Shown here piece after piece: positions 14,572 to 51,371 of a DNA stretch of 64,000 bases. The stretch covers positions 13,643,075 to 13,707,074 of the forward strand of contig JAGMWU010000027.1 in the NCBI GenBank assembly GCA_018697195.1, written 5' to 3'. Every line of letters starts with the position of its first letter. Position 1 is the first letter of the stretch. Source of the stretch: Certhia americana (taxonomy: Eukaryota; Chordata; Aves; Passeriformes; Certhiidae). Made by a program: the position numbers and the translations under genes. The notes beneath the pieces were generated by a model, which saw nothing but the letters and a program-made list of their open reading frames with translations, had not been told where the DNA came from and did not search any database.

Positions 14572-14823
14572 TATGACGGCAAAACAGTTGGTCTGTGAAG
14601 CCTGAAAGAAGGAGGGGTTTGGCTATAGAGAGCCAATCCCTGATGAGAATGTAAGCAGGCAGCGATTGGTCAGTGAGCTGGGTGGTAACCAATTATAGCG
14701 AATCAGGTTCAAACACAGAGTCTTTTGAATAAGGTATATAAAAGCTGTGTAAGCCATTAAACACTCTCTGCTGCACGAACCTCGGAGTGTCCTGTTGTTT
14801 CTCCATCTCCCCCAATTGCAACA
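14572..14823 (+). repeat. 3-prime LTR of provirus E (252 bp)
   Basis: Starts TATGACGGCAAAACAG and ends CCAATTGCAACA. A TATA box (GGTATATAAAAGC) lies at about 14733. It is followed by GGAGAT, the right copy of the target duplication, after which the protease of provirus B resumes in sense orientation. Confidence 0.9.
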
Positions 14824-16056
14824 GGAGATGTCTTACTAGTTCCTGGAGCAGGTTGCAATTTATTGGGGAGAGACTTGCAGATACAATTAGGAATAGGGGT
14901 TATGCCTGAAGAAGGGAAAATGGTAGCCAAAGTGCTAAAACTCCGCCAAGAAGATGAGGAAAGGATTAAGTGGGAAGTTTGGGCTGAGGAAGGAAATAGG
15001 GGAGGATTGAATATTGACCCCATAAGGGTAATGACTGAGAGAGAAGAATGTCCCATATGTGTGTGTCAGTACCCTATATCATTAGAAGGAAGAGAAGGCT
15101 TAAAGCCAGCAATAGAAGAATTGATAAAGGATGGGACACTGGAACCTTGTATGTCTCCTCATAATACCCCTATTCTCCCAATAAAAAAGCACAATGGAAT
15201 TTACAGATTAATTCAAGATTTAAGGGAAGTTAACAAAACAACCCGGACTCGGTACCCAGCGGTACCTAATCCCTATACCCTTTTAAGTAAAGTCCCGCCT
15301 CAGCATCAGTGGTTTAGTGTTGTGGATCTTAAAGATGCACTTTGGGCTTGTCCATTAGCAGAAGATAGTCAAAATATTTTTGCTTTTAAATGGGAGGATC
15401 CAGGTACTGGGCAAAAACAGCAATTAAGATGGACAAAACTGCCACAGGAGTTTACTGAATCTCTGAATTTATTTGGACAGACTTTAGAGGAAATATTACA
15501 GACCTTCCCTGCTTCTCCTGGAGTACAGATTCCCAATATGTTGATGACCTTTTATTATCGGGAGAAATTGAGGTTGAAGTTCGGAAGGCAACTATAAAAT
15601 TTTTGAGTTTTCTGGGGGAGAAAGGATTGAGGGGATCAAAAGGAAAACTACAATTTCTGGAGTTAGAGATGAAGTACCTTGGTCACTTGATCAGCAAAGG
15701 TAGCCAAAAATTAAATCCTGAAAGGATTGTTGTGATTTTATCTCTTCCCCCTCCTTCTTCAAAGAAGGACGTTAGAAAACTGCTTGAGTTATTGGGGTAT
15801 TGCAGGCTGTGGATTGAAGGACATACTCGGGCAGTGTATGAAAATATATGAAAAATTGACAGAGGAAGACAAGGTAAAGTGGACTAGAGAAGTTGACAAT
15901 AAATTAGAGGAATTAAAGTTTAAACTCACCTCAGTACTAGCTTTGAGTTTACCCTCATTAGAAAAGCCCTTTTATCTCAATGTGAATGTGGAAGATGGAG
16001 TAGCTCGTGGAGTTTTAATTCAGGAATGGTGAGGAGTGAAAAGACCAGTAGCCTAT
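14824..16056 (+). pseudogene. pol: pol remnant of provirus B: end of protease and reverse transcriptase
   Basis: A class I pol. The protease end (PGAGCNLLGRDLQIQLG) runs into RT. The fingers have PILPIKKHNGIYRLIQDLR and the palm has VVDLKDALWACPL. The YVDD catalytic box is encoded at 15537-15548 but sits one frame off the upstream reading. Thumb and connection follow (MKYLGHLISKG, later KPFYLNVNVEDG). The TPQ-like LPQEF region is kept. There are frame changes near 15530, 15600 and 15840 and a stop at about 16030. Sequence ends at GVKRPVAYC where provirus C begins; RNase H is missing. Confidence 0.88.
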
Positions 16057-16319
16057 TGTAGGCACACAGTTTGTGGTGATTGGGAATGGGGCTGCGGCCA
16101 AGCCTCATCCCTAATGGGCTACAGCTGAGTAAGACAGGTGACGACTGTTAAAGGTAAAGAGACCTGGAATGCTGAGGGGTATGAATCAATCACAGAAAGG
16201 TGAAGAGGGTCACACAGGTGTAATGCATGTAGGATGAATGGTATAAAAGGTTGTTCAGAAGAACAAGAAATTAGTGGTGTTTGGAACCATTCAAGAGGTT
16301 AGTTGTATGTTCTCCTTCA
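16057..16319 (+). repeat. 5-prime LTR of provirus C (263 bp)
   Basis: Starts TGTAGGCACACAGTTTG and ends GTTCTCCTTCA. It is nearly collinear with 25090-25362. TATA box GGTATAAAAGG lies at about 16240. Confidence 0.9.
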
Positions 16320-16321
16320 TC

Positions 16322-16339
16322 TGGTGACCCTGATGTGAT
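16322..16339 (+). promoter_or_regulatory. Primer-binding site of provirus C, tRNA-Trp type
   Basis: TGGTGACCCTGATGTGAT lies two bases after the LTR and differs by two bases from the tryptophan-tRNA site of avian alpharetroviruses. Confidence 0.85.
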
Positions 16340-16829
16340 GAGAAGACAGGATGTGGGAATGAAGCTAGGCAGAGAAAAGTCTGTAGAACAAGATGCTGAT
16401 ATGATGAAGACCAGAGCCAGGCAGAGAGAGAACCTGAAGAACAAAGCCAGAGAGTGTAAGAAAGGAGACAGGCAGAGAAAAGTCTCTAGAATAAAGCAGG
16501 CAGACCAAGGACCTGAAGAACAAAGCAGGTGAACCAAGAGCTTGCATTATCAGATGACTTCTAGATAAATACACCACCCCCAGGTGAGTGGCTGGAAGCT
16601 TAGGAATGGAGGTTTAAATACTGGTAGAAGCAGAGTCCATACTGGACTGCTGCGCATATTACAAAGAAAAGGTATTAAATGTGAGGAGTGGGCACTACAT
16701 ATTTTGCTTGTTTGGTGTGGAGGAAATGGTGTGAGAATGAATGTACAGACTGCCTTCTTTGGAAGCAGGGCACACGCTGCGGGACACACTCACACTGGGG
16801 GACAAGATAGCCGCAGGGTTGTTTAACAT
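16340..16829 (+). pseudogene. gag: Leader and matrix-like gag fragment of provirus C
   Basis: A purine-rich leader with GACAGGCAGAGAAAAGTCT-type repeats (16340-16560) is followed by a frame with LLRILQRKGIKCEEWALHIL, which resembles the matrix start of provirus E (LILSKRGLEHDEEAL). A later LWKQG piece may match IWEQV of E. The frame passes a stop at about 16809 and then enters the coiled-coil sequence in the same register. The gag assignment rests on a short similarity and is moderate. Confidence 0.5.
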
Positions 16830-17198
16830 TAGGCAAACAAGAGTATCTCCTGAAAGAAAGGGAGGAGTCTTTAGCAGAAATAAATAAACAGGTGAATTTT
16901 TTTCAAGACAAGATGAATAACTAGTCAAGAAAAGCTGCAGGCTGAAGGCAAAAATGTAGCAAGATCACCTCATCAAAAGCTTAATGTCACAGGTCAATCA
17001 GCAGAAGGATTTAATTTCTAGTCTAAGCCAGCAAATGAAAGAAAAAGACTTGTCTGTTACTCAGGTCATGGAGTTATTGTCTAATGAAGTGCTGAATTTT
17101 TCTGAAAAGAGGAGTACATTAATTGTCAAACTGCAAGACCTTGAAGCTGTTCATAATAGTTCAGTGGCAGAGCTAAACTGAGTATTGCAGGAACTTGG
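16830..17198 (+). pseudogene. Captured coiled-coil (giantin-like) fragment 1
   Basis: Reads as heptad-rich helix: LGKQEYLLKEREESLAEI, then from 16984 a 65-residue frame with SSLSQQMKEKDLSVTQVMEL. It is rich in Glu, Lys, Gln and Leu with no retroviral domain. Two stops near 16920-16960 disrupt it. It ends at the LTR inserted at 17199 and resumes at 17811. It is part of one long tropomyosin-like or golgin-like coiled coil. The giantin assignment comes from fragment 4. Sense orientation and lack of introns suggest a captured cDNA or a piece of one very long exon. Confidence 0.6.
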
Positions 17199-17810
17199 TG
17201 TCCTGGGGTGACGTTGTGAGGTTTGTATCCCCAATCGTCTGTTCTGTTTAGGCTGGATATGTTCTTCAAGACTGGCTCAGGGAAGTTTTGTTTTGGTTTT
17301 ATCAGCTTGCTGATAATAGTCAAAGGGACACAGACATATAGTGCTGCTTTTGCAGCTGCTTTTGCTTGCTGGCTTTGCTTGCTTGCTCTTGCCTCTGCTT
17401 TTAGCTCTTTAGTTAGTTTAGCTAGACAGTCTGAGTTTCCTCCGGACTGTTTTTCTTTCCCTCTCTTCTTTTATGGAATCATTCAAGCCTGTTCTGGACT
17501 GGGACCTGGGAAACACCGAGAGTCTGCACTCTGTGGCCTGCAGCAGCCTGCCCAGCGCCGGAGAGACTGACAACAGAGTGACCACTCCCCAGAGAGAAAC
17601 TTTCTGAATTTGTTATCTCGTCAGAACAGTGATCCAGTATTGTTCATCTTGTGTGTTGGGGGGTGCTCTGTCTGTTAAATAAACAGGTTCTTTCCACTTC
17701 TCTTTGAGGAGTCTTTCCCAAACCGGTTGAGGGGGGAGGGGCCACGGGGGTTTGCTCTCTGAAGGGGCCTCTTTGGGAGTTTCTCCCCAAACTTGCCCTA
17801 AACCAGGACA
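17199..17810 (+). mobile_element. Solo LTR, TGTCCTGG...CCAGGACA type (612 bp)
   Basis: Outer eight bases are exact inverted repeats (TGTCCTGG and CCAGGACA). CTTGG stands on the left and CTTTGG on the right, a 5-bp duplication with one extra T. AATAAA is at about 17676. The CTAAACCAGGACA end is shared with the LTR at 26825-27282 and the remnant ending at 63358. It interrupts the captured coiled-coil sequence. Confidence 0.88.
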
Positions 17811-18866
17811 CTTTGGTATTGTAAGAAAGAACTGGAACATAACCAGGTTATGTAAAGCAGTAGAGAAGCTGAGTTTCAAGATTTAATGAATGAAAAAGAG
17901 GAGATGAAGTGCAATCTTGGAAAAATGGGCAAGGAAAAAGAGAATTGAAAAAAGAAGCTACAAGTGGCATTCATAGTCAAAAGTGATCTAATGCAAAAAG
18001 TTGGGAAATTAGAAAAGAGTGGACAGGAAGAAATAGAAAAAGAGCAGAAAAAAGCAGAGGGAGCTGTTGAAGCAAGTTAGTGAGTTAACAGACAAACTGA
18101 AACTAATTGAAGGACAAAGTAATGCTTTTGAGTCTCATCTTGGAAATTTGAAACAACTTGTAGAAAAAGATGGCAAAATAAATGATCTGACCAAAATCTT
18201 ATCTTCAAGAGCATCATATTTAGAGGAACTTCAGCACAATATTGCAGAAGTGAATGATGTCATAGCTGAAAACCAAAATGTTTGTCAGCAGAACCTAAAA
18301 TCTTTAGGAGAGAAGGAATGTATGCTTGCTCATCTGCGATCTGTTCTGGATAAAAGAGCAAGGGCATATCACGAGAAATGTTCTCAGTTGATCTCAACTC
18401 TTCAAGAGGTCAAGTCTGAACTTGGAAAGTTGTTGAAGAAAAAATTCCAGTTTAGAAGAGCCTAGTTCAAATGCAGGAGGCAGAAATGAGTGTCTGAATC
18501 CCAGCAATGATGTTAATGCCATAAATCAATTACAAAAAGAAAAAGCACCTTTACAGATGGAGTTTTTCGTCATGAAAGAAGATATGAAAAAATTCAAGCA
18601 AGAAAGTGAAGAGCACATAAAACTGGCAACAGATTTTGATGAACAAAAAACCCACCTTGAGCAACTGAAGCAAGAACATAAAACAAGAACCAAGATTCAG
18701 GTTGCATTCTTAGACAAGTTAGAAAACATGATCACCTCAGTACCAAGTGAAGACACCTAGCTAAAAGAACTAAGAAGTGATTATGCAAAACAGGAGGAAA
18801 CAGAGATGTTAAGGAAAGAGCTGAGAAAAATATTGGTCAAATTCAGTGATGATAAAGAAGGAACAA
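17811..18866 (+). pseudogene. Captured coiled-coil (giantin-like) fragment 2
   Basis: Longest continuous part of the captured sequence. After about 250 bases with stops, a 132-residue frame (18067-18465) reads VSELTDKLKLIEG ... ILSSRASYLEELQ ... LRSVLDKRARAYHEK. A 67-residue frame follows (18557-18760, KKFKQESEEHIKLATDFDEQ). Heptads of Leu, Glu and Lys dominate. There is no signal peptide, membrane segment or viral motif. It has no splice-like breaks. Provirus D is inserted at its right edge with a 6-bp duplication. D plus one duplication copy is a multiple of three, so the frame continues at 23283. Probably part of a long Golgi or centrosomal coiled-coil protein; identity is not proven by this fragment alone. 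Confidence 0.65.
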
Positions 18867-19325
18867 TGAAGCATCCGATTCTAGCCCAGATGAGATAACC
18901 AGCGCTTCATCTCAGGTCACCCACCTTTGGCGTCTTTGTGAGAGAGACACTCTGATTCGCTCATCCAGAAACAGAACTTTTTAATACCGGGAAAATAACA
19001 AACTATAAGCCGTAGACGGTACAAGGGAACAGACCGAAAAAGAGCGTGAAAGTCCAGGGTAACAGCATTCTTAAGCACAAACACTGGGGAGGGGTTTAGG
19101 GAGGAGAAAGTGGGGATAGTCCAATGGGGGAAGGCAATTAGGAATATGGAAAATACTGCAGCAAAATACAACCAGTAACAACAACGAGAGCTGAGAACTT
19201 TTTGGAAATGATTTCCATAAACCAAATGAGGTAATTGGGGGTGGGTACCAGCTCACCCTGATTGAGAGCTGACCCATAGTTTGGAGTTAAGATTTCCACC
19301 CCTATCTGCAGGGCAGACCACTACA
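18867..19325 (-). repeat. 3-prime LTR of provirus D (459 bp)
   Basis: On the plus strand it begins TGAAGCATCCG and ends CCACTACA, so the LTR reads TGTAGTGG...GCTTCA. It matches the copy at 22824-23282 with few differences. Confidence 0.92.
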
Positions 19326-19345
19326 TCTCCCCCTATTTTTCTATC
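19326..19345 (-). promoter_or_regulatory. Polypurine tract of provirus D
   Basis: TCTCCCCCTATTTTTC on the plus strand is a purine run (AAAAATAGGGGGAGA) immediately upstream of the LTR in element orientation. Confidence 0.8.
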
Positions 19346-19560
19346 TAAGACAGAAAGGTAAACTGTTTTTTTAAAGGTTTTGAACATAAACTTGAATAAA
19401 CAAAAACAAACAACTATTAATACAAGCACAAATAAGATCAACAGTCCAGTTTTTATGATGCTTCCTGTTGATCTTCTGATGCTACTGGAGATTTTTTCTT
19501 CAGGTGCTCTTCTGGTTCTGTTGCAAGTGTTGATTTTCTTCTCTTCTGTACTGCTGGATA
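19346..19560 (-). pseudogene. Hydrophobic C-terminal tail, possibly envelope transmembrane protein
   Basis: The minus-strand frame shows a basic, serine-rich stretch (SSIRRSTGSII), a strongly hydrophobic segment (LLILFVLVLIVVCFCLF) and a lysine-rich tail (KTFKKT). The frame runs into the PPT and LTR, as the end of env often does. A membrane-anchored C-terminus of Env is the simplest reading. No surface domain, fusion peptide or CX6C motif is seen, so an unrelated membrane protein cannot be excluded. Confidence 0.4.
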
Positions 19561-21323
19561 GTTAGCTTTGTTCCTTCATTTGCCTTTCCTACCTTTTCTC
19601 TGTAATATTGAACTAATACCATCAATTAGATTGTTTTGAAATTTACACAATATTTTATATGGGTAAACATGAAACAGATATACACAAGAAATTAATTTTG
19701 ACGTATGTGAAGAGTGAACAGTATAGGTCAGAAAGTTTAATGTAATAATTAATGTAATAATTAAAGCCTTCCTTTTAATTTCTTTACTCTCAACCTAATA
19801 CCCTTCATTCTTAGTAAACCACTCCTTTTCTTCTACACTATTACCCTTCATCTTACCATTAAATAGCTTACTCATACTTCTTCTTTACTTGCTCTTTCAT
19901 TCTTAATGAAACTTCTGTTACTTTCCCACTTATAAAAATTGTAGTTTAACACATTAAGTGCGAAAGTGAAACATATCTTCTATAAAAACACAAAATAAAA
20001 TTGTTTTAGATTGGTGAAAAATTAAACATCAAGTTAGACTTATTATAGCTTCAACCTCTATTCTACTGTCAAATTAAACTTATACTTTCTTACAATAAAA
20101 CATCAAATTAATTATACCTTCATACTTCCCCCATTTTTTTATTATTTAAATTTCTTTAGAGATTACTCTTTATTATTAGAACCATGAATATTGTCCTTCT
20201 GTGGGGCCCTTTGCAGAAAGGGCAATGGTCAGGGCATAAAGAGCATGTTTTGGAAAATTTATTGCTGAAAATAATTAAAATAGATGGGTTTCATGATTTA
20301 TGGAAATAAAATTTGCTTTAGTATCTTCTAAAATTTGATAAAATAGTGGGAGTTAGGACTATTTGTATCACATTAATTTTTTGTAACTAGCTGAGAACTA
20401 TTTACATTTATGTATATAGGAAAACGAATAGATAATGATTTGCAAAAATTAAGTTAACATTAACAAATTTAGTAATAGTACTGATACTTAATACAACTTC
20501 AGTTATTACAGAGATGTGGTACTGAAACTGAGCTTAAAATTTATTTCAGTTGAGATTAATAGGTCTGGAATATAACTGGGAGAGCAATGGAGGAAACGTA
20601 AAATTAAAATGACTAAAGCTTAAGCATTGTAGAGATTGTCTTAGAAAAGCTCAAAATTTATATTGTTAAGTTAAAATTAATAACAGTAGGTTGCTTTTTA
20701 AAGTAAAATATGGAATGAAAACAAAACTAAATTTGACATCTATAAAAATAATTTAGCTTCTTAATTTAGAAAACTCAGGCTTGAAACAACAAAAATAATT
20801 AACAAACATATTTTCAATATAATATAGAATTCACTTGAAACAATCTGAGTACAACTGAAAACGTGTTTACAAAGAAGGGAGAGTGTTAGGATTAGCACAG
20901 AATATTTTCACATTAATATTAATTTGTTGTTTTATGCAGGTCTGGTGGATTAGCTCTTTCTTTAGGGAAAGAAAGAAAATTAATTCCTTAAGTAAACTAT
21001 ATAACCTTTTGTTGGAATCGAATTTTAGAATTCTCTGCTTGTTCCATAATTTCTGCAACATAAAAAAAATCAGTTAAAAACCAACAAAGAATCTGATAAA
21101 CTTTTACTCTATTGAAAAATTAATCCATATAGACGTGGACTCTCTCCTAACACAGCAAACAAAAAGGGTAACTGGTGGAGAGTTTGGAAAGCTGCAAACA
21201 GATTTTGCCCTCGGGGTAAAATGAGACATGAGGTTCATGTCTCCTTTTAACCAATTGAATAGAGGCTTGAAACGCTGAGAATCTAGTTAATAGTTCATGC
21301 AGTGTGTTGAGAAAGGTCTGTAA
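19561..21323 (-). other. AT-rich interior of provirus D, no domain recognised
   Basis: About 1.8 kb of unusually AT-rich sequence with only short frames on both strands. Position implies it replaces protease, pol and most of env. TTAAATTT-type runs dominate. I see no catalytic motif. Confidence 0.5.
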
Positions 21324-21813
21324 TTAGCACTGACGGGGCAGCTGGCAACTCCCATCTGGTGTTTGCTGGCACAGAAGCAGGCAGGTTTTCAATGATGTGC
21401 TGCAGCTGTGAAATCTCGGGACCTCGCTGCCTCTGATCACAGGTGACAGGGATTCTTGGGTCATCACATGCTTCTGTCCTGCATTCAGCTTGGAGTTTCT
21501 TGAGTGACCACAAGCAGCCTGTTTCAATAGCTGTTTCTGGCCAGGTGAGGTCTTCTTCTCATGAGGAGAGGCATCAGTGAAGTCAGGTGGGGAGGAATAG
21601 CTGCCTGCCAGAAGCACCTGTACTGTGCTGGGCTTCAATTTATCTCTCGGTAACATGGGTGCTGCCATCTTGGACGCGGGCCCTTCCGGTTCACCGGCAG
21701 GTCTGGTTCCGACCCCCCCCCCCAGGATGCACCACGTGTTGCCAGCAGCGGCGGGAAATCCCGGGTCGGGGCAGCCAGCATGCTCGGGTCTTAACTGTGT
21801 GAACTGTGTAGTA
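21324..21813 (-). pseudogene. gag: Distal gag-like part of provirus D
   Basis: A proline-rich frame follows the matrix region, one frame off it. A G run of about 17 bases at 22020-22036 is a likely site of the frame change, or of a sequencing error. No major homology region or zinc knuckle is seen before the AT-rich interior begins. Confidence 0.4.
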
Positions 21814-22569
21814 CTATCGGCAGGAATGGGGAAGGGGGGGTCCCAACGGACTGTGGCATCGGCTGGAGAGGTTAGAGTACTCCCGGGAGTGGCTAGGGTT
21901 GTTAGAACAGCAATCCGACGACGTGTCACAGCCACACGCAATTACTACAGAGCCAGACTGCTTTATGTTAATAGAGGAAGGGGGAAGAGGAGAGAGCGAG
22001 GGAAGCAGTGGGATGGAGCGGGGGGGGGGGGGGGGGTCCGGGACAGCCTGCGCACTGCTGTCTCGGCTCCCAGTTGGAGGGTCTGGCACGGACGGACACG
22101 GAGTAGCGGGGTCACCAGCTAGGCTGCATTTCTCCCCGGGCCAGCTGCGGGCACAGGCAATTGCCACCTCTGCTTCATATCTGTCTGCTGGGGTTTTCAC
22201 AGGACAAGCAATGGCGGGAAGGGGTTTCTCGGCTTTCCCGGGCAGTTCCGAATCGGTTTTTTGCCGCTCCGCCGTGACTAAGGTCTCTGTTATTTCGGTT
22301 TGGACCACGTCAAAGGTGATTTTAAAGACTGGAATCAGTTTTTGAGCGGACCGGTCCCGATTTGCCACTAAGTAATAGATCTTCTTCCCGATCGAATCCC
22401 AAAAGTCCAATGTAAATATCGCGGTCTCTGTCGCATCAGAATTTTTTAAAATGAAGCGGGCAAGCTTTTTAAGTTCTTTTTTCTCAAATTTCATGTCCCG
22501 GTTGGCCAATTTTAACTTAGGAGTTTTATAAAAGTCTCTCTCTCCTACGGTTGACATCTTCACACCCAT
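21814..22569 (-). CDS. gag: gag N-terminal region of provirus D (matrix-like)
   Basis: An open frame of 251 codons starts MGVKMSTVGERDF about 235 bases after the PBS. The glycine after the initiator methionine fits N-myristoylation. Residues 25-110 are a compact charged domain (KKELKKLARFILKNS, then TLDFWDSIGKKIYYLV) as expected for matrix. From about residue 120 it becomes proline, alanine and serine rich with a run of prolines encoded by a long C/G homopolymer. The true gag probably shifts frame there. It is next to the 5-prime LTR in the element's own orientation. I cannot assign it to a named gag family. Confidence 0.6.
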   Translation of the reverse strand: MGVKMSTVGERDFYKTPKLKLANRDMKFEKKELKKLARFILKNSDATETAIFTLDFWDSIGKKIYYLVANRDRSAQKLIPVFKITFDVVQTEITETLVTAERQKTDSELPGKAEKPLPAIACPVKTPADRYEAEVAIACARSWPGEKCSLAGDPATPCPSVPDPPTGSRDSSAQAVPDPPPPPRSIPLLPSLSPLPPSSINIKQSGSVVIACGCDTSSDCCSNNPSHSREYSNLSSRCHSPLGPPLPHSCR

Positions 22570-22803
22570 TTTAGAAACTTAACTTTTAAAAAAGATAACT
22601 AAAATTAAGAAAAATGGGACAGATGTTGGCCCTTCTCCTACCTTCTCTCGAAGGCCCTCGATAAGGCTGTGTCCTCCTCACACCTTATCCGGCGAAGTCC
22701 TCACCGCTTCGCCCTCTGCCGGCACCAATCGAGAAGGGCAAGGTCCTACTACCCACTCCTGGAGGCAGGGTGGGTCCCTGAGCCGTCTCCTGAATGTCAG
22801 GAG

Positions 22804-22821
22804 TCCCTGTTCAGGGCACCA
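22804..22821 (-). promoter_or_regulatory. Primer-binding site, tRNA-Lys3-like
   Basis: On the minus strand TGGTGCCCTGAACAGGGA follows the LTR after two bases. It closely resembles the lysine-tRNA site TGGCGCCCGAACAGGGAC. Confidence 0.8.
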
Positions 22822-22823
22822 GG

Positions 22824-23282
22824 TGAAGCGTCCGATTCTAGCCCAGATGAGATAACCGGCGCTTCGTCTCAGGTCACCCACCTTTGGCGTCTTTGTGAGA
22901 GAGACACTCTGATTCGATCATCCAGAAACAGAACTTTTTACTAATGGGAAAATAACAAACTATAAGCTGTACACGGTACAAGGGAACGGACTGAAAAAGA
23001 GTGGGAAGGTCCAGGGTAACAGCAGTCTTAAGCACGAACACGGGGGAGGGGTTTAGGGAGGAGAAAGTGGGGATAGTCCAGTGGGGGAAGGCAATTAGGA
23101 ATATGGAAAATACTGCAGCAAAATACAACCAGTAACAACAACGAGAGCTGATAACTTTTTGGAAATGATTTCCATAAACCAAATGAGGTAATTGGGGGTG
23201 GGTGCCAGCTCACCCTGATTGAGAGCTGACCCATGGTTTGGAGTTAAGATTTCCACCCCTATCTGCAGGGCAGACCACTACA
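22824..23282 (-). repeat. 5-prime LTR of provirus D (459 bp)
   Basis: Same length and ends as 18867-19325, with few mismatches, so D is a comparatively recent insertion. Confidence 0.92.
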
Positions 23283-23978
23283 GAACAATCAGTTTAAAGC
23301 TTTTGAGACAGGAGGAGCAATGTCAAGGCAGCTTGTTAGAAGACATAAAGCATCCACAGAAAAAGCTAAAATGCACATCAGACTAAAACTATAGAACTCA
23401 AGGCAGTGCTTGAACATGTGGATATTGAGAAAAAAAGCACTTATTAAAAAAGGTGAAGAGAATTACAAGATGAGCCAAGAGGGACTACAGAGGTCAAAAC
23501 TGAAGCTAAGCAGGAGGTTGCAGAAAAGAACGAAGAATAGAAGCACTGAGATGTTCACTTACGGATTTAAAAGAGAAACTTGGTCTGGAGAAAGAATTAT
23601 TAAACCGAGCCATAAAGGAGGGCCAGGAAGAAACCCACCATTACAAAACAGCATTTGAAGACATGAAGAGTGAAAAAGAGGAACTTCTCTCAGTTCTTTG
23701 GAAAAGTTCAAATTTGGAACTAATTAAGTTGAAAAAGAAGGTAGAACATTTCAGTAAAGAAAACAAAAATCTTGTGGCAGAGCTGTGTATGCTGCCTGAG
23801 AAGGCTGAGATGAGTAAACCTGTGGTGTTGGGCAAAGAGCTTAAGGAAGAAAAGGAATTGGGAGAGGTTGGTTCAGCAAGTCATGCCCTTCAAAGGAATT
23901 TGGAAGGAAAAGTCACTGCTTTTCAACTATCAGAAACTGATTACTCAAAGAAAACTAAACTGAGAGAACCAACAGAAT
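23283..23978 (+). pseudogene. Captured coiled-coil (giantin-like) fragment 3
   Basis: Continues after provirus D. Up to about 23560 there are stops and frame changes. From there the reading is clean: LTDLKEKLGLEKELLNRAI, then a frame from 23663 with SEKEELLSVLWKSSNLELI and KKKVEHFSKENKNLVAEL. Strong heptad pattern, no viral similarity. Codon use and AT content match fragments 1 and 2 and differ from the neighbouring ERV sequence. Confidence 0.65.
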
Positions 23979-24270
23979 GTGAAATCCAGAAACAAATCAG
24001 TAGAAGAGCCACTAGCAAAACCTGCAAATCTAAATGATTCCAAATCCCAAGAGCAAAGAGCTGCAACTGAAGAGAAATCCAGAGAGCACCTCCAAAAGAA
24101 ATTACAGGCAGCTTTAGTATCGCCTGAAGAAGCCTTGAGAGAAAATAAATGTCTAATGGAACAGATTGGTCAGCTGATGTTGGAAAGAGAAGAACAAGAA
24201 CAAACTCAGATTAAACAACATCAAATGCTTAAAGCCAAATCAAAAAACCCAACAGCCTAGCTCTGGGATT
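23979..24270 (+). pseudogene. Captured coiled-coil fragment 4, best giantin match
   Basis: A 93-residue frame with SREHLQKKLQAALVSPEEAL followed by RENKCLMEQIGQL. From memory of the family, giantin (GOLGB1, the large Golgi-membrane tethering protein) has a very similar run of the type RKLQAALISRKEALKENK. That is a long enough match to favour a giantin-derived origin. Upstream residues (LNDSKSQEQRAATEEK) lie where giantin has a comparable linker. The frame ends at a stop at 24258. It is one frame off fragment 3, so at least one indel lies between. An alignment to bird GOLGB1 would settle identity. Confidence 0.5.
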
Positions 24271-24469
24271 AGTAGCATAGAAGCAGAAATATTGAGAGCT
24301 AAATAATCAGTACAATGTGTTTCTTTCTTAATAAAACCTATGTGTTGTATTTAAACATGTCTTTCTACCTATTAGTCCTACATGAAATATGTGAATATGT
24401 CATAATATCCATTTACCTAAACCTGTTCTTATAGAAATGCTGCAATTTTATAATTTAAAAAGAAACCAT
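24271..24469 (+). other. Non-coding piece after the coiled-coil sequence
   Basis: AT-rich, with an AATAAA signal (TTAATAAAACC, about 24330). The stretch TACAATGTGTTT...GTTGTATTT (24311-24352) recurs at 24792-24833, marking a duplication of the 3-prime end. Confidence 0.6.
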
Positions 24470-24785
24470 GAGTTGGAGGAAGATGGAAACAGTTATTGCT
24501 GAAAGCAGTCATGCCTCTGATAAAATGCAGTTGTGCCAATTACCAAAGAGTGGGAACAGTCTTGCCCTCACAACTATGGATGGATTGTATGAAAACGACT
24601 ACAGAACTGCACAAGGTCAAGCATTGAAAAGAACAAGATGAGAGAGAGAAGCAGCAAGCAGAAACATTATTTTAGCAGATAGAAGAACTGAAATTACAGA
24701 AGACAAAAGCAACAAAAACTGAAAAAGGAACAAGAGAATTTACTAAAGCAGCAGTGGGAGCTAGAGACAGAGCAGCCGTTCTATT
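24470..24785 (+). pseudogene. Captured coiled-coil fragment 5
   Basis: Short helical pieces in shifting frames: DEREKQQAETLF, QIEELKLQKTKAT and KLKKEQENLLKQQWELETEQ. The composition matches the preceding fragments, but several stops are present. It lies between the two copies of the TACAATGTGTTT segment, so it may belong to a duplicated or rearranged part of the captured sequence. Confidence 0.45.
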
Positions 24786-25068
24786 ATTCAATACAATGTG
24801 TTTATTTGCTGGTGAAACATATATGTTGTATTTGTGAATTGCAGCCATTAATCTTTGTCAATATTCCGTAGGCATAGGTATGAAAGTTAATTCCATAGGT
24901 ATGAGTACAAAAACTTTGACATTTGATGTAAGTTTGAGAAATTAATTAAGGTCAGTACACGGACACATTCCAGAGGTAGTAGAATCTGCATAAAAAGACA
25001 CTAGTACCATGTTTACTGTTTCTTCTGCAAGGGCCCTGTAGAAGGATAGTAGACATGGCATTTATTTC
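24786..25068 (+). other. 3-prime untranslated region of provirus C
   Basis: No frame. The end (GCAAGGGCCCTGTAGAAGGATAGTAGACATGGC, given here only by its outline) resembles the pre-PPT region of provirus E. Confidence 0.5.
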
Positions 25069-25089
25069 AAAAGAAAAAAAAGTGTGAAT
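25069..25089 (+). promoter_or_regulatory. Polypurine tract of provirus C
   Basis: AAAAGAAAAAAAAGTGTGAA directly precedes the LTR start TGTAGG. It is purine rich with two T interruptions. Confidence 0.7.
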
Positions 25090-25362
25090 TGTAGGCACAC
25101 AGTTTGCGGTGATTGGGAATGGGGCTGTGGTGATTGGGAATGGGGCTGTGGCCAAGCCTCATCCCTAATGGGCTACAGCTGTGTAAGTCAGGAAAAGAGT
25201 GTTAAAGGTAAAGAGACCTGGAATGCTGAGGGATATGAACCAATCACAGAAGGGTGAAGGGAGTCACACAGGTGTAATGCATGTAGATGAATAGTATAAA
25301 AGGTTGTTCAGAAGGACAAGCCGTTAGTGATGCTTGTGATGTCAGTTGTATGTTCTCCTTCA
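25090..25362 (+). repeat. 3-prime LTR of provirus C (273 bp)
   Basis: Matches 16057-16319 but carries a local duplication of GTGATTGGGAATGGGGCTGTG near its start, which explains the extra length. Confidence 0.9.
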
Positions 25363-25870
25363 GTTTACAATGGTGGAAACAGCCACTGGATGGATGGCGA
25401 TGTACCTTGTGTCTCACACCGCTGCCCAGAACACATCTTGGGCCTTGAAAAGAAATTTCTGTGGAAACATGGGACCCCAGAAAGAACTGAGTTGGATAAT
25501 GGGACTCATTTTAAAAACAGCCTTCTATTCCCTATTATGCATCAGCCTCTGGGAAAATTGAATGGTACAATGGATGGCTAAAACCCACAGCAGAGGCAAT
25601 GTGAGGTAGGAACTTTAAACATTGGAATCTGCATTTAGCAAAGGCCACCTGCTTAGTTAACACCCAAGGCTCTACCAATTGAGCTGACCCTGCCCAATCA
25701 AAACCTGCATGTATCTTAGAAGAGAATAAAGTCCCCATGGTGCATATAAGGAATGTGTTAGGGAAGACAGTTTGGATTAGTCCTGCCTCCAGCAAAGGCA
25801 AACCCATTCATGGAATTGCTTTTGCTCAAGGACCTGGGTGCACTTGATGAGTAATGCAGAGGGACAGGGA
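25363..25870 (+). pseudogene. pol: pol remnant of provirus B: integrase core end and C-terminus
   Basis: A class I integrase. TATGWMAMYLVSHTAAQNT is followed, one frame over, by HGTPERTELDNGTHFKNSLL, which holds the second catalytic aspartate. The third catalytic region is decayed. A C-terminal block with KTVWISPAS and GIAFAQGPGC follows. There are at least two frame changes and stops at about 25840. The zinc domain and first aspartate are missing, as is RNase H, so about 0.7 kb of pol was lost where provirus C sits. Confidence 0.8.
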
Positions 25871-29664: not shown

Positions 29665-29670
29665 CAAAGC

Positions 29671-32995: not shown

Positions 32996-33271
32996 GGAGT
33001 TTTAGATACAGGTGCAGATATCACAATTTTACCAGAGAGCAAGTGGCCATCAAACTGGGAATTGCAACCTGTGGCAGGCAAACTTCAGGGCATAGGAGAA
33101 ATCACATTGGCTAAAATCTCAAAGAATATTGTGCAAATTGAGGGACCTGATGGAAAAATAGCAAGTGTTCGTCCATTCATTGCAAATTATAAAGCCCCCT
33201 TGTGGGGACAAGACACCATGTCCCAGTGGGGAGTCCAATTGGTCATTCCTAAGACACCCCAGGATTTTTAG
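32996..33271 (+). CDS. pro: Aspartic protease of provirus F
   Basis: Continues in the same frame after the TAG. The active-site motif LDTGADITIL sits at about 33002-33031 (DTGAD at 33005-33019). The flap region has GIGEITLAKIS, and the end has NYKAPLWGQDTMSQWG. The length of about 92 codons fits a retroviral protease. It ends with TAG at 33269-33271, overlapped by the second slippery site. Apart from the upstream stop it looks intact. Confidence 0.85.
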   Translation, partial: GVLDTGADITILPESKWPSNWELQPVAGKLQGIGEITLAKISKNIVQIEGPDGKIASVRPFIANYKAPLWGQDTMSQWGVQLVIPKTPQDF

Positions 33272-35409
33272 AAGTAGCCACTGTGACGCGCCCTACCCAC
33301 AAATTAACATGGTTACAAGACACCCCAAAGTGGGTACCAATGTGGCCATCGAGTAGAGAAAAGCTCAAGGTGCTTGAGAAACTTGTAGAGGAACAGGTGG
33401 CCCAAGGCCACCTAGAAGAAACAACAAGCCCTTGGAATTTCCCAGTCTTTGTAATAAAAACACCGGGAAAGGACAAGTGGAGACTGCTTCATGATCTCAG
33501 GGAAATAAACAAAATCATAGAAGATATGGGACCACTCCAGCCAGGGATGCCCTCTCCAACAATGCTCCCTCGAGGCTGGAATTTAGCAGTATTAGATATC
33601 AAAGATTGTTTCTTCCAAATTCCTCTGCACCCAGAAGATGCCACAAGGTTTGCATTTTCAGTTCCCACCCTAAATCGCCAGGCCCCCATGAAGAGGTATC
33701 ACTGGAAGGTGCTACCTCAGGGTTTGAAAGCCTCGCCGTTCATATTCCAACAGTACGTAGCATCATTACTGTCACCTGTACGTGCTGAGAGACAGGATGC
33801 CATCATCCTTCACTACATGGATGATGTGCTGGTGTGTGCCCCCAAGGACTCCATACTCCAACACACGCTTGACCTAGTGGTTAAAGTTTTAACCTCTGCT
33901 GGATTTCAATTACAGGAAGACAAAGTTCAAAGGATGCCACCTTGGAAGTACCTGGGCTTGCAAATTTCAGAGAGGACCGTTGTTCCTCAAAAATTGGAAA
34001 TCAAGTGTAATCCTAGAACCCTAGCAGATCTCCACTCCCTGTGTGGATCATTGAATTGGGTAAGACCCTGGCTAGGCCTCACAAATGAGGATCTAGACCC
34101 TCTTTTCAATTTATTGAAAGGGGAGAGGGATCTGGTCTCCCCCAGGGAACTGACCCCAGAGGCAAAGACAGCAATCCAAAAGGTACAGAAAGCCTTGTCA
34201 GAGAGACAGGCTCACAGGTATGAACCAAGCGTACCTTTCCATTTCATTGTGCTAGGAAAGCTGCCACACCTGCATGGTCTGATTTACCAATGGATCGATG
34301 GGCAGAGAGATTCACTCTTAATCATAGAGTGGGTCTTCCTCTCTCACCAAAGATCCAAGACCATCACTGAGCCAGAAGAGTTGATAGCTCAATTGATTCA
34401 GAAAGCCAGGATAAGGTTGTGTGAACTGGCTGGTTGTGACTTTACATGTATTCACCTCCCGGTCAAACTCTCAGAGGGAAGGAACTCTCCAAAGAGACTG
34501 ACCAAAGAGATGTTTGAACATTTGCTCCAGAGCAATACCTGTCTCCAGTTATCTCTGGACAGCTACAGGGGACAAATATCAGTCCATGCCCCATCCCACA
34601 ATCTTTTTAATGAGGAATTCCACCTCATTCCTTGTGAGAAAAGGTGTTGGAGACCACTCAAAGCTCTCACAGTGTTCACGGACGCATCTGGGGCTTCCCA
34701 CGAGTCGGTGATGACTTGGAGAAACCTGCAAACTCAGCATTGGGAAGCTGATGTGGAGTTGGTAGAAGGGTCCCCCCAGGTAGCTGAACTAGCAGCTGTG
34801 GTAAGAGCCTTTGAGAAGTTCTCGGAACCATTTAATTTGGTGACTGACTCTGCATATGTGGCTGGAATAGTGTCCAGAGCGGAGCAGGCTGTGCTCAGAG
34901 AAATTGAGAATGAGCATCTCTTCAGATTGCTCTCAAAGCTGATTTATTTGGTTTCTCATCGAGAACATCCGTTCTTTGTGATACATGTATGGTCACATTC
35001 AGACCTACCTGGTGAAATTGCAGAGGAGAATCGTCGAGCAGACTCCCTTGCTGCACGACTTGAAAAAGCACGTCTCCCTGATGTCTTCCAACAGGCAAAA
35101 CTGAGTCACCAACAATATCATGAAAATGTGCCAGGTCTGATCCGTCAGTTCCAGCTAACACGGAGTCAGGCTCGAGCTATTGTGGCCACCTGTCCCAATT
35201 GCCAGTTCCAGGCCATGCCATCAATGGGTATGGGGGTTAATCCCAGAGGCCTTGGCAGTTGTGAGGTGTGGCAGACAGACATCACACACATTCCTAGTTT
35301 TGGTCGCTTCAAATATGTTCATGTAAGTATAGACACACATTCAGGTGCAATGTATGCCTCTGCCCATGCAGGAGAGAAAGCTGTGCATGCTAAACGACAC
35401 CTAGTGTAA
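33253..35409 (+). CDS. pol: pol of provirus F: RT, RNase H, integrase N-terminus
   Basis: An open frame of about 718 codons; the first ATG is at 33283 and residues are counted from it. RT occupies about 20-330: LPQGLKASPFIFQ, then YMDD at 178-181 (33814-33825), the variant typical of betaretro- and lentiviruses. RNase H lies at about 460-600, with FTDASG (Asp 467) and VTDSAYVAG (Asp 522). The integrase zinc domain has His 609, His 613, Cys 637 and Cys 640. The first core aspartate is in QTDITHIP (Asp 666). It is entered by frameshift from pro, not by its own ATG. A TAA at 35407-35409 cuts it in integrase; the frame continues unchanged afterwards. Confidence 0.93.
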   Translation, partial: DTPGFLEVATVTRPTHKLTWLQDTPKWVPMWPSSREKLKVLEKLVEEQVAQGHLEETTSPWNFPVFVIKTPGKDKWRLLHDLREINKIIEDMGPLQPGMPSPTMLPRGWNLAVLDIKDCFFQIPLHPEDATRFAFSVPTLNRQAPMKRYHWKVLPQGLKASPFIFQQYVASLLSPVRAERQDAIILHYMDDVLVCAPKDSILQHTLDLVVKVLTSAGFQLQEDKVQRMPPWKYLGLQISERTVVPQKLEIKCNPRTLADLHSLCGSLNWVRPWLGLTNEDLDPLFNLLKGERDLVSPRELTPEAKTAIQKVQKALSERQAHRYEPSVPFHFIVLGKLPHLHGLIYQWIDGQRDSLLIIEWVFLSHQRSKTITEPEELIAQLIQKARIRLCELAGCDFTCIHLPVKLSEGRNSPKRLTKEMFEHLLQSNTCLQLSLDSYRGQISVHAPSHNLFNEEFHLIPCEKRCWRPLKALTVFTDASGASHESVMTWRNLQTQHWEADVELVEGSPQVAELAAVVRAFEKFSEPFNLVTDSAYVAGIVSRAEQAVLREIENEHLFRLLSKLIYLVSHREHPFFVIHVWSHSDLPGEIAEENRRADSLAARLEKARLPDVFQQAKLSHQQYHENVPGLIRQFQLTRSQARAIVATCPNCQFQAMPSMGMGVNPRGLGSCEVWQTDITHIPSFGRFKYVHVSIDTHSGAMYASAHAGEKAVHAKRHLV
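33262..33268 (+). promoter_or_regulatory. pro-pol slippery site G_GAT_TTT
   Basis: G GAT TTT stands in pro register directly before TAG. A -1 slip leads into the pol frame, which is open from 33253. Mouse mammary tumour virus uses the related G GAT TTA at pro-pol. Confidence 0.8.
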
Positions 35410-36018
35410 GCTTTTTCAGTGTTAGGGATCCCAAAAAAAATTAAAACTGACAGTGGCCCAGCATACGTGTCCAATGAGTTCCTGGAATTTGTCCAGCAGT
35501 GGGGAGTGGAGCATAAAACTGGCATTCCCGACTCCCCCACAGGCCAAGCTGTGGTTGAGCGTGCACATCAGATGCTCAAACAGGTTTTGGCTAAACAGAG
35601 TAGCACGATGGTGGGGATGCCTCCACAACAGAAGCTCTGCAAAGCCATGTTTACCATCAATTTCCTGAACTGTTCTTTTGAAAACATGAGTCCACCTATA
35701 CGTCATTTTAACAGTGGTAATCAATTTAAACTGTCTCAGCGTCCACCTGTCTTGATTAGGGATCCAGAAACTTGGGAAACCAAGGGTCCCTATGAGCTCG
35801 TGACCTGGGGCCGTGGCTATGTGTGGGTAGCTACTCCCTCAGGCCCTCGGTGGATCCCCCAGAAGTGGGTAAAGCCTTTCGTTCCCAGAAATCCAGCTCC
35901 AGCAGAAGGAGATAGAAAGCAAGTAGCCACTGCCTCCAAGAGAAGACGCCATCGGATGGAGGAAGAAGAAAACCTTCCTAGGTGTGGACTCCATCCAGCA
36001 GAAGCAGAAAATTTTTAG
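35410..36018 (+). pseudogene. pol: pol of provirus F: integrase core end and C-terminus
   Basis: Same frame as the upstream pol, cut off by one stop. It holds the second catalytic aspartate (IKTDSGPAY, codon at 35449) and the catalytic glutamate (GQAVVERAH, codon at 35557), giving the D-35-E spacing. A C-terminal domain follows with PYELVTWGRGYVWV and RWIPQKWVKPF. Ends 118 bases before the LTR. Confidence 0.92.
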
Positions 36019-40837: not shown

Positions 40838-41298
40838 TGTAGTGGTCTGCCCTGCAGATAGGGGTGGAAATCTTAACTCCAAACCATGGGTCAGCTCTCA
40901 ATCAGGATGAGCTGGGACCCACCCCCAATTACCTCATTTGGTTTATGGAAATCATTTCCAGAAAGTTCTCAGTTCTCGTTGTTGTTATTGGTTGTATTTT
41001 GCTGCAATATTTTCCATATTCCTAATCGCCTTCCCCCATTGGACTATTCCCACTTTCTCCTCCCTAAACCCCTCCCCCGTGTTCATGCTTAAGACTGTTG
41101 TTACCCTGGACCTTCCCGCTCTTTTCTCGGTCCGTTCCCATGTACGGTGCACGGCTTATGGTTTGTTATTTTCCCATTAGTAAAAAGTTCTGTTTCTGGA
41201 CGACCGAATCAGAGTGTCTCTCTCACAAAGTTGCCATAAGGTGCGTGACCCAAGATGAAGCACCGGTTATCTCATCCGGGCTAGAATCGGACGCTTCA
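40838..41298 (+). mobile_element. Solo LTR of the provirus D family (461 bp)
   Basis: Starts TGTAGTGGTCTGCCC and ends GGACGCTTCA; same family as the two LTRs of provirus D, here on the plus strand. TCTACG on the left and TCTGCC on the right may be a decayed 6-bp duplication. Confidence 0.9.
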
Positions 41299-41945
41299 TC
41301 TGCCTGTTTTCATCTTGGGCATTCACAGTACACCAGGAACTAGAGGCAAACAAAAAATCAGACCCTGCTGCATCCTCCCTATACATAGCAGGTGCCACTG
41401 GCAGGATCATCTGGCAAGTGCCATCAACCATGGAGCATATTATATCTTATTTTACAGAGAGTACTTCATCGTATTTGTCAAAACCATCCATAAAAATGTG
41501 AGTAAACATGTCTAAGGCACATAGTGACTTAAAAATTTAGTGTCACATTGTTTCAAATATTCTGAAAATTTCTGCTTATATACCTACAATAAATATTTAC
41601 AGTGCAAAAAAAAAAAAAAAAAAAAAGAAAAAAAGTCTTATCTAGTTGTGTGAATTTGCCTGTCACTATATGGTATGGGAGCCTTCTGCAGATGCTGAGC
41701 CTGGGCTGGGGTGGGATTGCTGGCCTGGTGTTTCTAATCACGATATGCAGCCCATACATATGGTATTAGCCAGTATTTTGGCAAAACCAATGTATCAACA
41801 GAAAAACTCTGAGAGAGGATTTCCATCCCCACATGCAATGTGGCAATGATATATCACCTGCAATCATCTCAACCCCATCTTTTAGACCCATTTTGATTTT
41901 TTCTACTTCATAAATGTCCTGAACAATAAGGAAAGGAAAACTCAA
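41299..41945. other. No gene; poly-A run
   Basis: A run of about 22 A at 41607-41628, followed by AAAGAAAAAAAG. Nothing else recognised. Confidence 0.6.
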
Positions 41946-49422: not shown

Positions 49423-50948
49423 CTAGACCACAGCAGGAAGTTCCACATCCAGGGATGGTGACTCCACCATCTCCCCAGGCAGGCCATTCCAGTACTTTAT
49501 CACTTGTTCCGTAAAAGACTTTTTCCTAATATCCAACCTATATTTCCCTTGACACAGCTTAAGACTGTGTCCTCTCATTCTGTCTGTTGTTGCCTGGAGA
49601 AAAAGACCAACCCCTAGCTGACCACAACCACCCTTCAGGAATTTGCAGAGAGTGATAAGGTCACCTCTGAGTCTCCTTCTCTCCAGGCTAAACAATGCAA
49701 ACTCCCTCAGTCTTTCTTTATATGGCTTGTGTTCCAAGCCCCTCACCACCCTTGTTGCGCTCTTCTGTATGCGGTCAAGCATCTCAATGTCCTTCCTAAA
49801 CTGAGGGGCCCAGAACTGGACACAATACTCAAGGTGAGGCCTCACCAGTGCCAAGTACAGGGGAAGAATGACCTCCCTGGTCCTGCTGGCCACACCATTC
49901 CTGATACAGGCCAGGATGCCATTGGCCTTCTTGGCTACCAGGGCACACTGCTGGCTCATGTTCAGTCGGCTGTTGACCAGCACCCCCAGGTCCCTTTCTG
50001 CCTGGACACTGTCCGGCCACACCATCCCCAGTCTATAATGTTGCAGGGGGTTGTTGTGGCCAAAGTGCAGGGCTTGGCACTTGGACTTATTAAACTGCAT
50101 CTTGTTAGACCCTGCCCATCCATCCAACCATTCCAGGTCTCTCTGAAAAACCCTCCGTCCTTCCAATAGACTGACACACGCTCCCAGCTTAGTGTCATCT
50201 GCAAATTTACTAATGAAAGACTCAATACTCACAACCATGTCATCAATAAAAATATTGAACAGAACTGGCCCCAGCACAGACCCCTGAGGGACACCACTGG
50301 TGACTGGCAGCCAGCTGGATGCAGCACCGTTCACCACCACTCTCTGGGCCCAGCCATGCAGCCAGTTCCTAAGCCAGCACAGAATGCTCCTGTCCAAGCC
50401 ACGGGCTTCCAGCTTATCCAGGAGTATGCTGTGGGAGACAGTGTCGAAGGCCTTGCTGAAGTCCAAATGCACAACATCCACAGCCTTCCCTGCATCCACC
50501 AGGCACATCACCTGGTCATAAAAGGAGATCAGGTTGGTCAAACATGACCTACGCCTCCTAAACCCATGTTGGCTGGGTCTGATACCTTGGCCATCCTGTA
50601 AATTTTGTGTGATGACACTCAATATAAACTGTTCCATTATCTTGCCAGGTACTGAGGTCAGGCTGACTGGTCTGTAATTACCAGGATCCTCCTCCACACG
50701 CTTTTTGCAAATGGGTGTCACACTGGCCAACTTCCAGTCATCCGGAACCTCACCAGTGAGCCAAGACTGTTGGTAAATGATGGAGAGTGGCTTTGCAAGC
50801 TCATCTGCCAGCTTTCTCATCACGCTGGCATGGATCCCATCTGGTCCCATAGATTTACGGATATCCAAGTATTTCGACAGTTCTCTGACTGCCTCCTCTT
50901 GGATAATGGGGGGACCATTCTGTTCCCTGACACCATCAACCAACCCAA
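49423..50948 (-). pseudogene. CR1 ORF2, reverse transcriptase part
   Basis: An open frame of over 500 codons with the full set of non-LTR RT blocks: [64 protein letters not shown], the catalytic FADDTKLG, then [16 protein letters not shown] and a C-terminal [13 protein letters not shown]. The enzyme makes cDNA on nicked chromosomal DNA. It is intact in itself but separated from the endonuclease part by provirus G, whose CCAA duplication lies at 50945-50948. The frame begins inside LTR sequence, so its apparent first methionine is not the real start. Confidence 0.95.
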
Positions 50949-51371
50949 TGTTAGCATTCAGGAACACACATAATCATGGATTGATTATACGCAGGTGCTT
51001 TTATTGAAGCGCGTGGGAGCTAGGGGTATTGCAACCCAAATCTAGCTCATTCGTCTTTGTCCAAGGTGCACATATTTATACAATTTCAGCTATAGCAGTT
51101 ATACAACTCTAGTTACATCAGTAATCACTATAACAACCTTATCATATTGATTCATGAGAGTTAGCCCATCCTTGTACCACCCTTGTACCATCATGTACGA
51201 ATCTTATCTCTGGGTGGGTGTCTTAGAGACCCCAAGTACCAGTTCCCGTCAGGGGTGGATATTTTGGAAAACCCAAGTACCCATTCCTGTAAGCCTTTAC
51301 CCATCCCTAATACCAAGCATTCTTGCGGCCAACTTCTACATGACTTTAAAGCCTTTAACCCTATACTAACA
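50949..51371 (-). repeat. 3-prime LTR of provirus G (423 bp)
   Basis: Plus strand starts TGTTAGCATTCAGG and ends CCCTATACTAACA. On the minus strand it has a TATAAATATG box and AATAAAAGC. Confidence 0.95.

Follow-up and report, generated by a model that had tools for sequence, protein, structure and literature searches.

The provirus and its golgin-like interior

The window analysed here is a stretch of 64,000 nt from Certhia americana (assembly GCA_018697195.1, contig JAGMWU010000027.1). At 16057-25362 it holds a provirus bounded by long terminal repeats (LTRs) in which golgin-like coding sequence of host origin lies where viral genes would be expected. An earlier, sequence-only reading of this DNA had described the LTR pair, a primer-binding site (PBS) at 16322, a purine tract ahead of the 3' LTR and coiled-coil sequence in sense orientation, and all are present in the sequence. 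The features are listed below with the strand in brackets. ERV stands for endogenous retrovirus and TSD for target-site duplication; P0154 is the golgin subfamily B member 1-like protein of Chlamydotis macqueenii, used as the tblastn query; numbers beginning with L are loci.

16057..16319 (+): 5' LTR, short form; pairs with 25090-25362, with 230 of 252 aligned bases the same and a Kimura two-parameter distance (K2P) of 0.093
16322..16339 (+): PBS, starting two bases past the end of the 5' LTR
16340..16825 (+): leader, no recognised protein; splice-donor-like CAG/GTGAGT at 16581-16589
16826..17198 (+): golgin-like exon piece 1 (P0154 aa 136-274); its 5' junction was compared with the source gene
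17199..17811 (.): solo LTR, later insertion, flanked by CTTGG and TTTGG
17812..18866 (+): golgin-like exon piece 2 (P0154 aa 277-677), with a shared 132-nt deletion near 18685
18867..23282 (-): nested ERV, later insertion; LTR pair 438/460 identical, TSD GAACAA
23289..24194 (+): golgin-like exon piece 3 (P0154 aa 676-987), reaching the 3' junction
24195..24473 (+): 3' region of the element, with a decayed purine tract at its end (24457-24472)
24474..25089 (+): U3 portion of the long LTR; L037, L038 and L039 begin here as solo long LTRs
25069..25088 (+): purine tract preceding the short 3' LTR, read in the sequence
25090..25362 (+): short-form 3' LTR, carrying an internal duplication of 21 nt

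The golgin matches are collinear, P0154 aa 136-987 lying in sense on 16826-24194 over about 850 codons, and with identities of 47-81% per piece and E values down to 1.7e-105 they are far beyond chance. The coding sequence is split over frames and contains stops. Its gaps are two later insertions, the solo LTR, without which the golgin sequence of L010 is continuous, and the 4.4-kb minus-strand ERV, whose LTRs are near-identical; this inner LTR pair is more alike than the outer one, as nesting requires. Five golgin pieces had been proposed from the sequence alone. The sense coding sequence at 16826-24194 stands, but two of the boundaries are these insertions and the fifth piece, from 24474 onwards, is U3 of a long LTR. 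The solo LTR belongs to another LTR family, and a third copy of the nested ERV's LTR lies at 40838-41302 in the opposite orientation.

No retroviral Pfam domain was found in 16275-16532, 16569-16826 or 24692-24868, and a reading of 16569-16826 as gag matrix was unsupported by Pfam and PDB sequence searches. Searches of these two databases with pieces of the element gave nothing informative, phage records yielded no match to 16057-16830, and viral contigs searched with P0154 yielded no relative.

The 24470-24785 segment is not golgin, having no blastx match at E<1 among 156 proteins. In L037, L038 and L039 the sequence starts at the equivalent of 24474, or a few bases away from it, and finishes with the same LTR; beyond these limits the three loci do not match. 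A TSD precedes the start of L038, and one agreeing at five of six bases precedes that of L037. In golgin elements a purine tract precedes the 24474 equivalent, as seen in L009 and L028. It thus seems that U3 can begin at either of two points in this family, so that long and short LTRs result, and this replaces the idea that 24474-25088 is a second captured gene. L037-L039 were ruled out as the parent virus, their upstream parts not matching one another. The U3 at 24474-25089 holds a coding-looking, coiled-coil-like stretch that is conserved in other copies.

Source of the golgin-like sequence

The cargo had been taken for giantin (GOLGB1), an assignment that the protein comparisons do not bear out. 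Giantin proteins were gathered with a giantin query (120 of 211 matching proteins). In the 12 best comparisons, true GOLGB1 proteins match the window at 22-40% identity and in scrambled order, and identities of 43-58% are reached only over 34-49 residues, at 24024-24170. The window frame 23510-24034 matched 32 proteins, all bird models named GOLGB1 and 1,022-1,414 aa long, the best being that of Horornis vulcanius at 82% identity. Frame 18037-18462 matched four longer models, three of them named golgin subfamily B member 1-like, and the longer models are collinear with the window. In five species possessing both proteins, the paralog and GOLGB1 are 25-35% identical. The source is therefore best identified as a giantin paralog of birds, "golgin subfamily B member 1-like"; giantin itself was ruled out because the paralog matches far better and GOLGB1 weakly and out of order.

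The same genome holds the donor gene on contig C5, with an uninterrupted match to P0154 aa 184-1487 (L021) and, upstream of it (L031), one open frame of 1,066 codons. The captured stretch comprises 2,562 nt, or 854 donor codons, of which the window element carries about 2.3 kb. Both capture junctions are interior to a single giant exon, and in GOLGB1 the corresponding stretch likewise lies within a giant exon. The absence of introns is consequently no evidence for capture from RNA as against DNA, and the earlier description of the cargo as intronless carries no weight. The donor gene also has a 30-nt in-frame insertion at exon position 1492; the 30 nt are absent from all 12 aligned rows and from the other bird proteins aligned, which identifies the difference, by alignment, as an insertion in this host's gene.

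Recurrence of the chimera and its origin

The genome was searched with four queries, 40 candidates being scored for each: the LTR (of 324 candidate places), the leader 16320-16825 (50 matches; of 70), 24195-25088 (41 matches; of 98) and golgin piece 3 (42 matches; of 53). The piece 3 matches merge to 40 elements, one of which is the donor gene and 39 proviral, the window included; a listed 3' region lies within 20 nt in 24 of the 40 and a listed LTR within 4.5 kb in 16. Since five inspected loci (L032-L036) carry golgin sequence and are not on the piece 3 list, golgin sequence is present at at least 43 other places besides the donor gene. Ten LTR loci were inspected and gave five complete copies, one truncated copy and four LTRs only; both LTRs are also present in L009-L013, and all 15 inspected loci bearing the leader contained golgin sequence.

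Junctions were compared at 18 loci other than the window. The 3' junction is exact in 14, one base off in L036 and ragged in L025 and L030, with no data for L035. The 5' junction is exact in seven loci, a few bases off in three (L012, L032, L033) and not covered in three; in the remaining five (L009, L013, L024, L034, L035) it leads to golgin position 288-289, a shared inner deletion. An exact 6-bp TSD flanks L009, L012, L013, the solo L018 and the solo long L038; L011 has one of 5 bp, and L016 and L037 match at five of six bases. The chimera was thus transmitted as a unit by integration, because the same junctions recur at the other loci, as far as covered, and some of these have a 6-bp TSD. 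The earlier suggestion that bird genomes be searched for the same LTR with the same insert has therefore given a positive result in this genome. With regard to alpharetrovirus-like traits, 6-bp TSDs are present, the element holds no pol, and the PBS may resemble the 3' end of tRNA-Trp.

In a protein tree of a 229-codon piece, built from 10 proviral rows, the host gene and bird proteins, the proviral rows form one clade (support 100/99) within oscines (100/100); an earlier tree lacking the host gene had placed the window with five oscines (100/98). Inner branches in DNA trees are very short, which suggests a burst. It is likely that a single capture took place in a songbird ancestor and that the product was then copied around the genome. 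Overall, we interpret the window provirus, with a probability of roughly 0.85, as a member of a numerous family of defective, retrovirus-like elements. These carry about 850 sense codons of an exon of the giantin paralog, likely captured once in an oscine bird and then likely copied with the proteins of a relative.

The contrary assumption, that unrelated LTRs merely flank an ordinary gene fragment or pseudogene by chance, could draw on the missing TSD at the window locus. It is contradicted by the PBS and purine tract being in place, by the same arrangement with the same junctions at other loci and by the lack of a poly-A tail after the golgin stretch, and we regard it as next to impossible. 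A LINE-type processed pseudogene was also rejected, as inspection of both junctions revealed neither a poly-A tail nor a duplication where the host stretch begins and ends.

Several observations, including those on coding state given below, weigh against our interpretation. The proviral clade is sister to this host's own gene with a support of only 83/72. A TSD is absent from the window provirus (flanks CCTAT and GTTTA) and from L010, L014 and L017, and is not clear in L033, L034, L036 and L039. L009 and L010 contain inserts, and no parent virus or helper was found among the inspected loci. Equal-score golgin pairs occur on C14 and on C138/C27, and because some listed places look like segmental duplicates, independent integrations are fewer than places. 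One further pair, L009 and L015 on C27 (about 13.72-13.73 Mb), is probably an inverted duplication: the two copies are oppositely oriented, some 9 kb separate them, and their 3' regions have the same translation.

As to the window locus itself, its host site is the pol of another ERV: Pfam RVT_1 matches in 14761-15597 with 30.9 bits (cut-off 29.6) and again, below the cut-off, at 15459-15851, and integrase-like residues can be seen by eye after 25363, with no Pfam match in 25300-25581. By that reading about 1 kb of the surrounding pol is gone between the provirus flanks. In the piece 2 tree the window pairs with L012 (100/97), yet it does not have the 648-nt deletion of L012 and carries a 20-nt deletion that L012 lacks. 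The gap in the flanking pol, the missing TSD and the grouping with L012 despite discordant deletions indicate that the locus may be a recombination product of two copies.

How host and viral sequence were joined can be approached through the 132-nt deletion (up to 139 in some copies), which lies between AAAGCA repeats and is present in 12 of 12 rows, the window and 11 copies. Splicing was rejected as its origin, there being no GT-AG within 8 bases; a deletion between such repeats is what slippage during reverse transcription would leave. According to our interpretation, an ancestral retrovirus would have joined part of the golgin-like exon or its transcript to its own leader and 3' region, probably by template switching of the reverse transcriptase inside the exon, with the loss of its own genes. 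A relative would then have supplied in trans the proteins for packaging, reverse transcription and integration of the chimera, as no recognisable gag, pol or env was found in it and copies sharing frameshifts still multiplied. Capture could also have happened at the DNA level, a provirus in or next to the exon being fused to it by deletion and read-through transcription rather than by a switch onto mRNA. As both junctions fall within one exon, no spliced intron testifies to RNA; the 132-nt deletion suits reverse transcription but could be later, and with nothing decisive on either side we hold this route to be a real, though not the favoured, possibility. For microhomology at the junctions the host side was compared, and no parental viral sequence was found among the inspected loci.

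LTR divergence gives an approximate age. The K2P values are 0.122 for L009, 0.040 for L010, 0.092 for L011, 0.105 for L012 and 0.064 for L013, in addition to that of the window; L033 has 0.167, and L034 (0.20) and L036 (0.24) have damaged LTRs. With avian rates of 2 to 3.3 substitutions per billion sites per year, the median over the window and L009-L013 would correspond to about 14-23 million years. Contig C27, with 15.8 Mb of the 1.07-Gb assembly, holds 14 of the 39 proviral piece 3 elements, and this small, ERV-rich contig is probably the W chromosome. PMC8310711 reports the avian W as a refugium of ERVs.

Coding state of the cargo and known captures

Substitution classes were counted over 734 codons. 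Changes confined to single rows comprise 609 nonsynonymous (N), 215 synonymous (S) and 41 nonsense changes, with an N/S of 2.83 against a neutral 2.96, and fit neutral decay. Those shared by a minority of rows (N 126, S 56, nonsense 12) give 2.25 against 2.30. Majority-shared changes (N 48, S 32) and changes fixed relative to the host (N 31, S 32), a class that includes changes of the constrained host branch, contain no nonsense. The founder branch bears 22 amino-acid changes and the host branch 24, with nine unresolved and again no nonsense. The golgin frame is broken in the aligned copies, with a frameshifting 20-nt deletion in five of eight rows and a 2-nt one in five rows. Taken together, an open frame was probably present at the start of the burst but not needed in its course; copies sharing a frameshift still multiplied, so that the cargo was probably a passenger at that stage. 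In addition, 8 of 11 copies (window, L010, L012, L025, L028, L029, L030, L032; in L028 and L029 read directly from the junction bases) have an in-frame TAG shortly ahead of the golgin junction, at a distance of a few codons, which makes a gag fusion unlikely; it is missing in L011, L033 and L036.

These data also bear on whether the golgin stretch served the virus as a functional gene, with a predicted truncated coiled-coil protein that helped the founder and a frame lost only in the burst. Of the 55 differences present in 80% or more of the copies none is nonsense, the rows have no nonsense or frameshift in common despite the 22 founder-branch changes, and the shared 132-nt deletion preserves the frame. 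The median copy-to-copy dN/dS (ratio of nonsynonymous to synonymous rates) is 0.57 (range 0.45-0.89, 64 pairs), from a method that ignores transition bias, so that its neutral value is below 1. Some past coding use or constraint of the golgin frame is therefore possible. On the other hand, minority-shared changes are neutral in N/S with 12 nonsense among them, frameshifting deletions are widely shared, and the TAG speaks against expression as a gag fusion. We consider a working gene improbable. Equally doubtful is the bolder proposal that a songbird retrovirus, as long as it replicated, retained an open golgin frame as an accessory gene for a coiled-coil protein, which would make it a heritable transducing retrovirus with a cargo acting on the Golgi rather than on growth and with tens of germline copies concentrated on C27.

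In transducing (acutely transforming) retroviruses, sense-oriented host coding sequence has taken the place of viral genes between the LTRs, and the resulting defective virus needs a helper. The window element shares this plan, as had been suggested from the sequence: it has an LTR pair, PBS and purine tract, recurrent junctions, and a sense host cargo whose donor is known on C5; it is defective and a helper is inferred. It differs in that the golgin cargo is not a growth gene, that an in-frame stop ahead of the junction in 8 of 11 copies speaks against a gag fusion and that we know the element only as an old family with tens of germline copies. Most known cases of host gene capture by retroviruses come from tumour viruses and from retrocopies. 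With the donor exon, both junctions and tens of descendants in one genome, the capture, spread and decay of a cargo unrelated to growth become datable and countable. The copies further raise the question of whether their transcripts or small RNAs act on the donor gene, and annotation of the songbird golgin gene may pick up proviral copies.

Other elements resemble it in part. PMC5408686, on Tan et al. 2016, reports LTR-mediated retrocopies in chicken, zebrafish and mosquito and attributes them to template switching; in these, too, a portion of a host transcript is enclosed by the ends of an LTR element, whereas the golgin chimera reached tens of copies with fixed junctions, and its single-exon cargo cannot show intron loss. 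Maize Bs1, discussed in the same source, is also an LTR element with cellular gene sequence, but it is a plant element with three cellular genes, and the golgin element is animal, retrovirus-like and has one identified donor. Chicken ENS-1/ERNI, compared by description only, is an avian ERV present in many copies, and the gene studied in it codes for a coiled-coil protein; unlike the golgin cargo, that protein is described as retroviral in origin, with a role in the embryo (PMC3958431, PMC3362752). Among the papers listed by a literature search there was no ERV with a golgin insert, and the earlier guess of novelty is not contradicted.

Elsewhere in the window, long pol-like retroviral frames (718 and 202 codons) at 33253-36018 represent another ERV between repeats at 29668 and 36133. 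On the minus strand, 49423-50973 is an open frame of 516 codons that presumably encodes a non-LTR (CR1-type) reverse transcriptase; a Corvus GOLGB1 model (P0052) matches it at 49811-49999, and this model may accordingly include a repeat fragment.

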